This document shows, piece by piece, positions 11,982-16,404 of a stretch of 41,823 nucleotides of DNA. The translations under genes and the position numbers were made by a program. The stretch is from a bacterium. GTDB taxonomy: Bacteria > CSSED10-310 > JAJRTK01. The stretch lies in assembly GCA_024278345.1 (NCBI GenBank), contig JAJRTK010000467.1:1-41823 (forward strand), written 5' to 3'. The notes beneath the pieces were generated by a model. The model searched no databases. It saw nothing but the letters and a program-made list of their open reading frames with translations, and was not told the DNA's origin. Every line of letters starts with the position of its first letter. Positions within the stretch are counted from its first letter, which is position 1.

Positions 11982-13742
11982 ATGGCCGAAAAAAAACGCC
12001 GCCGCTTCACGAGCTGCTGTTTGCTGACTCTTCTCTTTCCACTCCTTGCCTTCGGCGCTCTAGTGATTTTTGCCGTGGTCATGGGCAAGACGGCTCTTAC
12101 CGTCGAGGAAGGTACGATACTGGAGATCGAGTTTGCCGGCGCTCTGCCCGAGGGCCCCTCCGGAGGTTTGCTTCCAACCTTTTTCGTGAAGGGCAAGAGT
12201 TCGCTTTTCACCATCCGCCAGGCTCTGAGACAAGGAGCAACCGACCCAAAAATCGCGGGACTCCTTCTTGATATCGAGCATTTCGGTTCCGGAATGGCAG
12301 CAGTGGAGGAGATCCTCCATGAGGTGGCCCGTTTTCGGGACTCAGGGAAGCCGGTCCAGGCGTTTCTCCGAGGCGATCTTGTGGGCGAACGGGAATATCT
12401 GTTGGCCACGGCGGCGGACGATGTTTGGCTGGCGCCTGAATCAGCCCTGGCCGTGAACGGTTTCAATGCCGAGGTCACCTTTTGGAAAGGGACTTTGGAC
12501 AAACTGGGAATCGTCCCGCAAGTCTTCATGTTCAAAGACTACAAGAGCGCTGGCGAGCCCTATTCCCGATACGAAATGAGCGAGCCGTTTCGCGAATCGC
12601 TTCAGGCTCTTCTGGGCGACTTCATGAACAGTTTGGTAGCCACCATTGCCAAACGGCGTGGCCTGGACGAGACAGTCGTTCGTCTCCAGATCAACCGCGG
12701 TTTGATGAGTCCTTCCGAAGCACTTCAGGCCCGATGGATCGATGACTTGGGATACCGAGACCAAATTGAGCAGCGCCTCATGGAGGAGGCGGGCATCCCG
12801 GAAATCCGAACACTCTCTCCTACCAGCTACCTCAGCCGCTCAAAATCTCCGGTCCAGAATCGTATAAAGATCGCCCTCATCTTTGCCGAAGGCCCCATTG
12901 TTTCTAGTGCAAACGAGATGGAGATCAACCCAATGGCACCCGGTGCCCGCGTGATCCATGGCCCGGCCCTGGCCAAGTGGATTGAAGAAGCGACAATCGA
13001 TCCGGGGATCCGGGCGATCCTCCTGAGGATCAACAGCCCCGGTGGCGCCGTCGTAGGCTCGGATCTTGTTTATCGTGCTGTGCGAAGGGCCCGGGCCAGA
13101 GGAAAAAAAGTGGTGGTCAGCATGTCCGACGTGGCTGGAAGCGGAGGATACTGGATTGCCATGAATGCCGACAAGATCGTCTGCCATCCTAGCACCATCA
13201 CGGGGTCCATCGGAGTCGTTTTCACCAAGTTCGATATTTCTGGACTCTACAAGCTTATCGGTGCCAACATTTCTACGGTCCTGGTGGGCAAGAACGCCGA
13301 CATCCTGAGTTTCGCCGCTGAGCTCCAAGGAGAGAAGCGAGACCGGATCGTGAGTTGGATGGAGCAGGTTTACGAAAGCTTCAAGAAAAAGGTCGCTGAG
13401 GGCCGGAATCTGTCACTGGAAGAGGTGGAAAAAGTGGCCCAGGGACGCATCTGGAGCGGGCAAGACGCCCTGGAACTCAAATTGGTGGATGCCCTTGGCG
13501 GCCTCTCCAAGGCTGTGGAGCTCGTCAAGGAGGAAGCCGCGATCCCCAAGACCCAAGAGGTTGATCTCGTGCTTTTCCCCAAGCAAATGAGCTTCTTTGA
13601 GCGCCTTGCCCGGGGAGACCTTTCCCTGGCCCACGCCGCAGCAAGCCTTGAGGGCCGCAGGAGCCTCCCGGATTTGCGGGAGCTTCACAAAGCAGCCCAA
13701 CCACGGATAGAGATCCTCTCCCCCACATTGGAGCTTCATTGA
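11982..13742 (+). CDS. sppA: Signal peptide peptidase SppA, long (67K-type) form
   Basis: 586 residues with one N-terminal membrane segment (CLLTLLFPLLAFGALVIFAV) and two tandem crotonase-like S49 domains, the layout of the long proteobacterial enzyme. It is an envelope protease that degrades cleaved signal peptides. The Ser/Lys dyad is visible: Lys188 in the N-domain (FKDYKSAGEPYSRYEMS) and Ser387 in the C-domain (DVAGSGGYWIAMNADKI). ATG 11982 follows GGGAG. It stands alone on the plus strand; the next gene is convergent. Confidence 0.93.
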   Translation: MAEKKRRRFTSCCLLTLLFPLLAFGALVIFAVVMGKTALTVEEGTILEIEFAGALPEGPSGGLLPTFFVKGKSSLFTIRQALRQGATDPKIAGLLLDIEHFGSGMAAVEEILHEVARFRDSGKPVQAFLRGDLVGEREYLLATAADDVWLAPESALAVNGFNAEVTFWKGTLDKLGIVPQVFMFKDYKSAGEPYSRYEMSEPFRESLQALLGDFMNSLVATIAKRRGLDETVVRLQINRGLMSPSEALQARWIDDLGYRDQIEQRLMEEAGIPEIRTLSPTSYLSRSKSPVQNRIKIALIFAEGPIVSSANEMEINPMAPGARVIHGPALAKWIEEATIDPGIRAILLRINSPGGAVVGSDLVYRAVRRARARGKKVVVSMSDVAGSGGYWIAMNADKIVCHPSTITGSIGVVFTKFDISGLYKLIGANISTVLVGKNADILSFAAELQGEKRDRIVSWMEQVYESFKKKVAEGRNLSLEEVEKVAQGRIWSGQDALELKLVDALGGLSKAVELVKEEAAIPKTQEVDLVLFPKQMSFFERLARGDLSLAHAAASLEGRRSLPDLRELHKAAQPRIEILSPTLELH

Positions 13743-13851: not shown

Positions 13852-15282
13852 TCAAAGGAAGAAATGCGATTTGTCCGAATAGTGCTCTTCAGGAGCTTCG
13901 TGAGGTTGAACGCTTCCTCGGATCCGTGCCAAGGCGAAGGTGACGAGGGTGAGGAGTAGCAGGAGTCCCAAACTCCGGGTCAGTGGAGTGGCCGGTGGTG
14001 TGATGGTCCCACATCCACCTCCGTCGCCGGTGTCTGGATCGGGTGTGGGCGTGGGCGGTACAGGCAAGGCTGGCTGGAAATCGGTCCGGTGATTGAAGGT
14101 GATGTCAGAATCCGCGATCTCGCCGCTGCTAATAAACCAGGCGAACGAGGTCACGGCCAGTGCTCCGCCTGTGAAAACCGCGTTGTCATCGGAATTGTCC
14201 GCGTCGGATACGCGAAAAACGTTCACGTTGTCGTCCACCGACGCCACGTCGATCTCCGTGTCGCCCCGGTAATCCCCGGAAAATGAGCTTCCGTTGATCC
14301 TGTTCCAGACCCCAAGGCCTCGTTGGAGAAGCTGGACCTGTTCAGCGGAAAAATCAGATGTGCGAATTTTGTAGGCTACAGGGATGGAAGCCCAATGGAC
14401 ACGAGGTTCACAAGCGGCGGAAGAACAGGTGAGCTCCGGTGACCCGCTGGCGCAGAAATAGGCAAACAGGTTTTCGTTGACTGATCCGGTGGGGAGCGGC
14501 AGGAAAAGGCCGCCATAGAGGGCTCGCATTCCCAGGCGATCGGCTTGTTCGAGGTCCCGCGGCCTGGTGCTGCCCGGTCCGATGACCCCGTACATCGTCT
14601 TTTCCTGGTTGTTCGAACCGATGCACTCGATATAGGCACCGCCGCCCTCTTCCGCGTTGTTGTAAAGATCCCCGAGAGGTCCCGCGAAGTGCCCCTGCTC
14701 GTGAACGGCGATGGAAAGGAAATCAAATGGGTTCTGTGACCTTTTCAGGCGGGCTGATGGGGACCCTTCGCGTTGTTCTGGCGGGGCGACCCGCTGGAAG
14801 AAGGAAAGGGCTGAGTCTCCAGCCTTGGGATGGGTCGCTTCATGGAGGCGCACTTTTCCTTCAGCGCCCCCTAGGACGAGGAAACGGTCATCTCCGAACG
14901 GAGATTTTCGCAGTGCTGCCAGTACGCGTTCTCCAAGAAAAAAACGGGGTTGATGGCTTACCCAGACCGCCAGATCTTCTTCTTCCAGGCGTCCGCCGGG
15001 AACCAGAATCTCTATGGGGGTCTGCCAAGGACCCTTGAGAGTCTCCCCCAACTGGAGAGTCACTGCCGTATAGACGGAGCCGGAAGGGAGCCGCCGGAAG
15101 ACGAGAGATTCGGTGACGGTTCCTACGACGACGAGCTCTGCCTGCTCAATGAGATCCGGGATGGAATGCCGTCTACCCATGGCGACGCTAGATTCCAGCC
15201 ACAAGAATGAGCAGGAGACAATGGCCGCGTACAAGGCGGAACGCCAGCCGGAACGTCTGAAAGAATGCCATGGTCTGGACAT
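13852..15282 (-). CDS. Matrixin-like metalloprotease with permuted lobes and C-terminal sorting anchor
   Basis: 476 residues. A signal segment (about 14-35) is followed by a beta-rich domain (about 40-150, HSIPDLIEQAELVVVGTV). Then comes the zinc lobe of a metzincin: HEQGHFAGPLGD (His194, Glu195, His198; Asp205 one position later than the usual third ligand), the Met-turn KTMYG (Met230) and the closing helix LEQADRLGMRALYG. The substrate lobe that normally precedes the zinc lobe comes afterwards: PVAYKIRTSDFSAEQV (about 301-316), FSGDYRGDTEIDV, and GEIADSDITFN (387-397). The C-terminus is GGGC, a hydrophobic helix and basic residues, like a CTERM-type sorting signal. ATG 15282 has AGGAGA upstream. 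Probably secreted and surface-retained; activity is uncertain because of the unusual third ligand and lobe order. Confidence 0.75.
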   Translation of the reverse strand: MSRPWHSFRRSGWRSALYAAIVSCSFLWLESSVAMGRRHSIPDLIEQAELVVVGTVTESLVFRRLPSGSVYTAVTLQLGETLKGPWQTPIEILVPGGRLEEEDLAVWVSHQPRFFLGERVLAALRKSPFGDDRFLVLGGAEGKVRLHEATHPKAGDSALSFFQRVAPPEQREGSPSARLKRSQNPFDFLSIAVHEQGHFAGPLGDLYNNAEEGGGAYIECIGSNNQEKTMYGVIGPGSTRPRDLEQADRLGMRALYGGLFLPLPTGSVNENLFAYFCASGSPELTCSSAACEPRVHWASIPVAYKIRTSDFSAEQVQLLQRGLGVWNRINGSSFSGDYRGDTEIDVASVDDNVNVFRVSDADNSDDNAVFTGGALAVTSFAWFISSGEIADSDITFNHRTDFQPALPVPPTPTPDPDTGDGGGCGTITPPATPLTRSLGLLLLLTLVTFALARIRGSVQPHEAPEEHYSDKSHFFL

Positions 15283-15287
15283 GAGGT

Positions 15288-15590
15288 CTATCTCCTGTTC
15301 CGAATCCGCTTGATCTTGAGTTCGCGCTCCGATTCAATTCGCCGGCGATCCTCCAAGAAATTTTGCTGAAGTTTCTCCTTTTGTACCACCACTTGATGAG
15401 GCGGGAGTTGGGCTAGCTTGGCCAATTCGGATTGGTGAAGAATCTCGATTTCGGCGAGCCGGGCTACGGCTTTGTTTTGTGCTTCGGCGATCTCTTGCTT
15501 TTGTTCATGGGATAATGGCGTCCGAGCTTCCTTGTTCTGCTCAACCCGCTCCAAGGCCAATTCCAGGGCCGTCTTGAGCTTGCCGCTCAT
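15288..15590 (-). CDS. Small coiled-coil protein of unknown function
   Basis: 100 residues, almost entirely charged alpha-helix (LKTALELALERVEQNKEART, SELAKLAQLPPHQVVVQKEK, RIESERELKIKRIRNRR). There is no signal peptide or membrane segment, so it is cytosolic. ATG 15590 is preceded by AAGGAGT at a good distance. Its stop is only 5 nt from the start of the matrixin-like gene, so the two form an operon. I do not recognise a family; no function is suggested beyond a possible coiled-coil interaction. Confidence 0.7.
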   Translation of the reverse strand: MSGKLKTALELALERVEQNKEARTPLSHEQKQEIAEAQNKAVARLAEIEILHQSELAKLAQLPPHQVVVQKEKLQQNFLEDRRRIESERELKIKRIRNRR

Positions 15591-15621: not shown

Positions 15622-15644
15622 GAGTGCTGAATGGCATTCCACTC
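15622..15644. repeat. Dyad between divergent promoters (possible operator)
   Basis: Inverted repeat GAGTG-ct-GAATG-g-CATTC-CACTC: two 5-bp half-sites on each side with a two-base bulge on the left. It overlaps the -35 position of the infC promoter candidate and lies about 32 nt upstream of the start codon of the coiled-coil gene on the other strand. Such a site could bind a dimeric regulator or simply form a hairpin. Confidence 0.4.
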
Positions 15645-15660
15645 TAACAGGGGTTATAAT
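15632..15660 (+). promoter_or_regulatory. Candidate sigma-70 promoter for infC
   Basis: A perfect -10 hexamer TATAAT (15655-15660) is preceded at 17 nt by TGGCAT (15632-15637), a weak -35. The leader to the infC start at 15874 would be about 205 nt, long enough for translational control, which is common for infC. Confidence 0.55.
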
Positions 15661-15873
15661 GACATCGGTTTCGATTGTGATCGAGTCCTGTGCAGTGGAA
15701 AAAGACTTCTCAGGTTGGTTCGTGGGAAGAGTGGTCTTGGGCTGTCACGGTCGAGCTGCCGTTACGAAAGCCAAGGAACCAGGCAGCAGTCTGGCTCCGG
15801 AACTAAAATCGAGAACTCGGTCCCCGCCCATGGGCTGGTGAAAATGGGTGTCTCGACAGATATAGGAGGGTCA

Positions 15874-16404
15874 ATGGACCCAAGAAGAGGCAGAGCAGGT
15901 CAACCTGGTAACAAGCGATTTCGCACCAATAAGCAAATCCGCGTCCCGGAGATTCGGCTCATCAGCCCCGATGGAGAGCAACTCGGAGTCGTACCGACCG
16001 ACCACGGTCTACGCCTTGCCAACAAGATCGGCCTCGACCTGGTGGAAGTCGCCCCCAATTCCCGCCCACCGGTTTGCCGGCTGCTTGATTTTGGGAAGTT
16101 CCTCTACGAGAAGAACAAGAAGGCGCCATCCAAGACCAAGAACGTCACCACCAAAACGATCAAGCTCCGGCCCAAGACGGATTCACACGATCTAGAAACC
16201 AAGCTCAAGCACGCGACGAGGTTTCTCAAGGGCGGAGATCGAGTTCGCTTCGTCATGCGTCTCCGTGGACGGGAAAAAGCCTATGCCAGCCGTTGGATCC
16301 AGAAGTTGAACGAAATGATCGAAATGATTCCCGAAAAGGTGAACGTCACGAGCAGACCGAAGCCCGACGGCGGTGCGATTGTTTGCGTTTGCGAGCCAGG
16401 CTGA
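15874..16404 (+). CDS. infC: Translation initiation factor IF-3
   Basis: 176 residues, normal length for IF-3. The N-terminal domain (RFRTNKQIRVPEIRLISPDG, GLDLVEVAPNSRPPVCRLLD), the basic linker YEKNKKAPSK and the C-terminal domain (KLRPKTDSHDLETKLKHATR, FVMRLRGREKAY) are all intact. IF-3 binds the 30S subunit and checks initiator pairing. The frame is open far upstream, but ATG 15874 has AGGAGGG at 15864-15870 and matches the usual N-terminus. The start is ATG rather than the rare AUU often used for infC autoregulation. rpmI and rplT, which usually follow, are absent; a J-domain gene on the other strand follows instead. Confidence 0.95.
   Translation: MDPRRGRAGQPGNKRFRTNKQIRVPEIRLISPDGEQLGVVPTDHGLRLANKIGLDLVEVAPNSRPPVCRLLDFGKFLYEKNKKAPSKTKNVTTKTIKLRPKTDSHDLETKLKHATRFLKGGDRVRFVMRLRGREKAYASRWIQKLNEMIEMIPEKVNVTSRPKPDGGAIVCVCEPG

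Follow-up and report, generated by a model that had tools for sequence, protein, structure and literature searches.

Inverted lobe order in a bacterial matrixin: a likely natural circular permutant of the catalytic domain

Matrixins, their bacterial relatives and the layout of the gene

The chain topology of metzincins is described as fixed, an upper lobe being followed by the active-site helix and then by a lower lobe. Among them, the matrixins (PF00413, Peptidase_M10; MMPs and karilysin) provide the nearest reference for the protein described here, as both of its lobes are homologous to halves of their catalytic domain, and it shares with them the HExxH motif, the Met-turn and the closing helix. 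Unlike matrixins, however, it has its two lobes reversed, uses an Asp as third metal ligand, lacks a recognisable pro-domain and carries an N-terminal domain of predicted TIMP/NTR-like fold. Normal-order bacterial matrixins with an Asp third ligand (L013, L016, L038, L003 and others) have the same lobes and the motif HExxHxxGxxD[LIV]Y, with the N-terminal domain either encoded by an upstream gene or fused (L003, L005, L060); yet in every one of these relatives the substrate lobe comes first and the zinc lobe second. In Listeria, the mtz-tim pair, a metzincin plus a TIMP-like lipoprotein, is a published example of a metzincin partnered by a TIMP-like protein in bacteria; the authors who described it were aware of no other bacterial TIMP-like proteins (PMC8235301). 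The present case is similar in that a bacterial metzincin is encoded beside a predicted TIMP look-alike; the Listeria pair differs in being separate genes, with the metzincin first, in its association with phage, and in that no permuted catalytic domain has been reported for it. The NCBIfam family NF041905 (myxosortase-dependent metalloprotease MXAN_2677/2678) has a similar Cys-TM-Arg tail and matches the substrate lobe weakly (E 0.099); membership was rejected, with a score of 11.6 against a cut-off of 250. We found no report of a circularly permuted metzincin in the open-licence literature searched, an absence that is no proof of novelty.

The gene lies on the minus strand, as do all of its features given below, within the whole stretch of 41,823 nucleotides that was analysed (hereafter the window). 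It is one unbroken frame of 476 aa at 13852-15282, with its ATG at 15282 and its stop at 13852, and encodes, from N- to C-terminus, a signal segment, the TIMP/NTR-like domain, the zinc lobe, a linker, the substrate lobe and a C-terminal anchor. The signal segment (aa 1-35; 15178..15282) was read from the sequence as the hydrophobic stretch SALYAAIVSCSFLWL. The zinc lobe (aa 183-257; 14512..14736), whose counterpart in normal matrixins is the C-terminal half, holds H194-E-Q-G-H198...D205 within the zinc-binding motif HEQGHFAGPLGD (aa 194-205; 14668..14703), the Met-turn methionine M230 (14593..14595; KTMYG), which aligns with the TMY of the family, and the closing helix LEQADRLGMRALYG (aa 244-257). 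A new linker (aa 258-293; 14404..14511) connects this helix with the substrate lobe (aa 294-402; 14077..14403), which it enters at the first strand; in matrixins of normal order, the equivalent of this lobe makes up the N-terminal half. Profile alignment identifies GEIADSDITFN (aa 387-397; 14092..14124) as the last strand of this lobe; in the normal order, the active-site helix comes soon after a strand of this type. The C-terminal tail (aa 403-476; 13855..14076) consists of a Pro/Asp-rich stretch, GGGCG, a transmembrane helix and a basic residue, and resembles a MYXO-CTERM sorting tail.

An earlier note, made from sequence alone, had claimed that the zinc lobe precedes the substrate lobe in one unbroken frame, and this held, as did each of the motifs it named (His194-Asp205, Met230, the closing helix and an end of the GEI-DSDI-FN type). 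It had not noticed that Asp is the usual third ligand of the clade to which the protein belongs, nor that the N-terminal ~115 residues form a conserved TIMP/NTR-like module.

Around the gene, a 100-aa highly charged, coiled-coil-like ORF (15288-15590, minus strand) ends 6 bases upstream of the protease start, and the two could perhaps be co-transcribed. Flanking genes for an SppA-like signal peptide peptidase and an IF-3-like protein (11982-13742 and 15631-16404) are in the opposite orientation.

Lobe order, profile matches and a same-order homologue

The lobe order was assessed with a profile of 55 normal-order bacterial matrixins, from which both permuted proteins were left out, the lobe profiles being built from loci in other genomes. 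The zinc lobe of the window protein matches positions 119-178 of this model (42.4 bits, E 2.7e-11), whilst the substrate lobe matches positions 3-112 (49.7 bits, E 1.6e-13), such that the two matches fall at opposite ends of the model and in inverted order. These matches are not due to chance: across 500 shuffles per lobe, the maximum was 9.9 bits, against the 42-53 bits observed. Pfam alone detects only the zinc lobe, and below its cut-off (PF00413, E 0.003-0.018). When the pieces were put back in silico into the order of normal matrixins, a single match over model positions 4-177 was recovered, with 105 bits for the window protein and 102 bits for its homologue. The break point, at model positions 112-119, is the loop through which the last strand of the substrate lobe normally leads into the active-site helix. 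What is expected at the sequence level of a circular permutant is therefore present, namely halves from opposite ends of the domain in inverted order, a break in a loop, and old termini joined, here by the linker.

The homologue in question is the single full-length one among the relatives searched, and is 35% identical over aa 16-439 of the window protein. It is encoded in a MAG from the same phylum and another family (Candidatus Schekmanbacteria bacterium NC_groundwater_415; JACPHN010000146.1; locus L037, also retrieved as L002), and has a matching layout in its 443 aa: the N-terminal domain, a zinc lobe with HELGHFLGLGD, the Met-turn with its conserved methionine, the closing helix, the linker, the substrate lobe and a tail of the form GGC...TM...RRSRK. 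The linker itself is conserved between the two, with a shared NENLFxYxC motif (NENLFAYFC in the window protein, NENLFTYIC in the homologue) and a further Cys. Its two profile matches are likewise in inverted order (E 9.5e-14 and 1.4e-11). Since a homologue this divergent, in an independent assembly, keeps the same order, the order is inherited, rather than an assembly error or a one-off scramble. The reading of the earlier note, that a circular permutation or an in-frame segment swap had produced this arrangement, is supported by the inverted matches of the two pieces and by this homologue.

Such an order is rare. Amongst 71 distinct two-lobe proteins, 69 run from substrate lobe to zinc lobe, and only the window protein and its homologue are reversed. 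A single-sequence scan of 84,980 GTDB genomes returned no match, and a two-row scan recovered only the copy in the genome of the homologue (G003) and one normal-order relative; no permuted copies were found in the viral contigs and plasmids searched. That only two permuted members are known limits the evidence. Nor did we find a normal-order paralogue in the source genome, where the other metzincin matches are different proteins. Two of the secreted metzincins encoded there (L039 and L040, on contigs C550 and C491) are pappalysin-like by motif, with HExxHxxGLxH and an MDY Met-turn, and are unrelated to the permuted protein.

The parent family is that of the matrixins, because a profile combining six relatives of normal order aligns with MMP-8 across the whole catalytic domain, likewise in normal order (E 1.3e-12), and matches karilysin as well. 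In a tree of rejoined cores the permuted pair forms one clade (support 100/98), nested with 11 normal-order proteins that all have an Asp third ligand (clade support 95/92). As the pair is nested among normal-order proteins, the permutation is derived. A tree of the zinc lobe only agrees with placement in the Asp-ligand clade. A tree of the substrate lobe only is poorly resolved; in it, the pair falls apart from the Asp-ligand proteins, which are themselves split (5 changes), so it remains possible that the two lobes stem from different matrixin copies.

The proposed permutant and its rivals

We propose that the gene encodes a secreted, surface-anchored zinc endopeptidase of the matrixin type, in which the catalytic domain is a naturally occurring circular permutant. 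The data show that the lobes are inverted, that this arrangement is conserved, that each lobe is homologous to its matrixin counterpart, where the chain was broken, and that the two permuted proteins are sisters. We regard the reading as a whole as likely; folding in cis, zinc binding, proteolysis and anchoring are inferred. In this view, the chain would have been cut at the loop that separates the final strand of the substrate lobe from the active-site helix, and the old C-terminus, at the closing helix, would have been tied to the old N-terminus, at the first strand, via the ~36-residue Cys-containing linker. Most likely, the two lobes of a single chain would then pair with each other and give a metzincin cleft of the usual kind. 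The permutation was most likely a single event in an ancestor of both genomes. A matrixin gene may have been duplicated and fused, its first substrate lobe and its last zinc lobe then being lost; this would leave the upstream TIMP/NTR-like domain fused to the zinc lobe. No repeats able to explain the rearrangement were found at the junctions. Tandem same-strand matrixin ORFs occur in relatives (L066, L075), an arrangement that could yield a permutation by duplication.

A viable permutation requires that the ends to be joined lie close together. In the active catalytic domain of MMP-1, a salt bridge links the N-terminus to the Asp232 side chain (PMC1885970). This Asp is a residue of the C-terminal helix. 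The ends joined by the permutation are therefore adjacent, and a linker of 36 aa is ample. Structure prediction does not help further: with AlphaFold2, both the core of the homologue and the mature window protein gave pLDDT of only ~30-40 over the permuted core and no usable model. We attribute this failure to the scarcity of alignable relatives, as the input for the core amounted to the two permuted rows and a few lobe fragments, and do not take the low values as evidence against one fold. The packing of the two lobes as a single metzincin, which the earlier note had hoped to see in a structure model, hence remains inferred only. Another of its proposed checks, the matching of the two halves to opposite ends of one profile, succeeded with the normal-order profile, and the search for homologues in the same order that it suggested yielded the one described above.

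Two rivals survive best, though we consider both unlikely. The first accepts the order as real, but regards the window protein as decaying or catalytically dead, a pseudoenzyme kept for binding, whose activity was lost via an extra residue in the zinc site. The earlier note had reported that the third metal ligand is shifted by one residue, and this held in the DNA: the motif is one residue longer than HExxHxxGxxD, the extra residue being P202, a whole codon (CCT). The shift is specific to the window copy, which lacks the HExxHxxGxxH/D spacing that the homologue retains in canonical form, and HExxH...D is found in all 11 normal-order members of the Asp-ligand clade. Perhaps the inserted Pro weakens or abolishes metal binding, in which case the window copy could be weak or inactive. 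A displaced ligand in this copy, with the spacing kept in the homologue and in every normal-order relative, speaks for a pseudoenzyme; against it, the reading frame is unbroken, the signal segment and the tail are in place, the catalytic Glu and the Met-turn are preserved along with both lobes, and the homologue combines the same order with a canonical site.

The second is a chimera, in which the zinc lobe and the substrate lobe come from two matrixin genes fused after a rearrangement. The zinc lobe does fall in the Asp-ligand clade whilst the substrate lobe alone does not, but this rests on the poorly resolved tree in which even the Asp-ligand proteins are split, and the combined tree nests the permuted pair inside that clade. 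A domain-swapped dimer, with the zinc lobe of one chain completing the substrate lobe of another, seems less likely still: the ~36-residue linker is long enough for such an exchange, but the ends are adjacent in matrixin structures (PMC1885970), so closure in cis requires none. Finally, an assembly error, chief among the refutations listed in the earlier note, or a recent scramble confined to the source genome, either of which a draft assembly in 550 contigs might invite, is all but excluded by the shared order, linker and tail of the 35%-identical homologue in a different assembly, by the uniform GC composition over the gene segments and by the absence of long repeats at the lobe joints.

Returning to the permutant, the order of this domain is shown to be real, rare and inherited, whereas the way it folds and its catalytic activity are inferences. 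A natural permutant would mean that each metzincin lobe can fold as a unit of its own, and that the cleft does not depend on chain order; it would also offer a natural break point to protein engineers. Enzymes of this kind are missed by profile annotation, with Pfam detecting half of the domain at a sub-cut-off score.

The N-terminal domain and its family

The N-terminal domain (aa 36-150; 14833..15177) is the only usable part of the AlphaFold2 model of the window protein, with pLDDT of 70-85 over most residues. The predicted model matches the fold of agrin NtA best (VIA Z 9.7, 102 residues, 3.6 A), with N-TIMP-3 and TIMP-1 (both Z 9.1) close behind, whilst C3/C5 NTR domains reach no more than ~7.7 and plain OB folds no more than ~7.5. 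We take the domain to have a TIMP/netrin-like OB fold, as predicted by this model. Profiles from Pfam and the PDB gave no significant match to the family of this domain, and no PDB sequence hit; among TIMP/NTR/NtA families, only NtA came up, in 2/20 members at E 0.09. There is no Cys in aa 36-150, such that both the zinc-chelating N-terminal Cys and the disulfides of TIMPs are absent, and, without that Cys, inhibition of the classic TIMP type is not supported.

By sequence, the domain belongs to a separate, unnamed family of secreted domains, with 67 distinct members in the loci examined. Seven of these form fusions with a matrixin, and the genes of at least 38 of the 67 lie directly upstream of a matrixin gene, usually overlapping it or within a few bases. 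As many of the loci were retrieved via the N-terminal domain itself, the matrixin neighbourhood is not merely a product of the search. It is possible that this family represents a bacterial TIMP-like regulator of matrixins. A bolder, tentative reading is that the permuted metzincin carries, in cis and ahead of its zinc lobe, a TIMP-like (NTR) domain serving as a built-in inhibitor or folding chaperone, derived from a widespread bacterial pair of TIMP-like and matrixin genes. The association of such a domain with matrixins would bear on the origin of animal TIMPs and on the link between TIMPs and matrixins. Members of the unnamed TIMP/NTR-like family are found across many phyla, for example at loci L004, L009, L013, L016, L024, L032 and L038.
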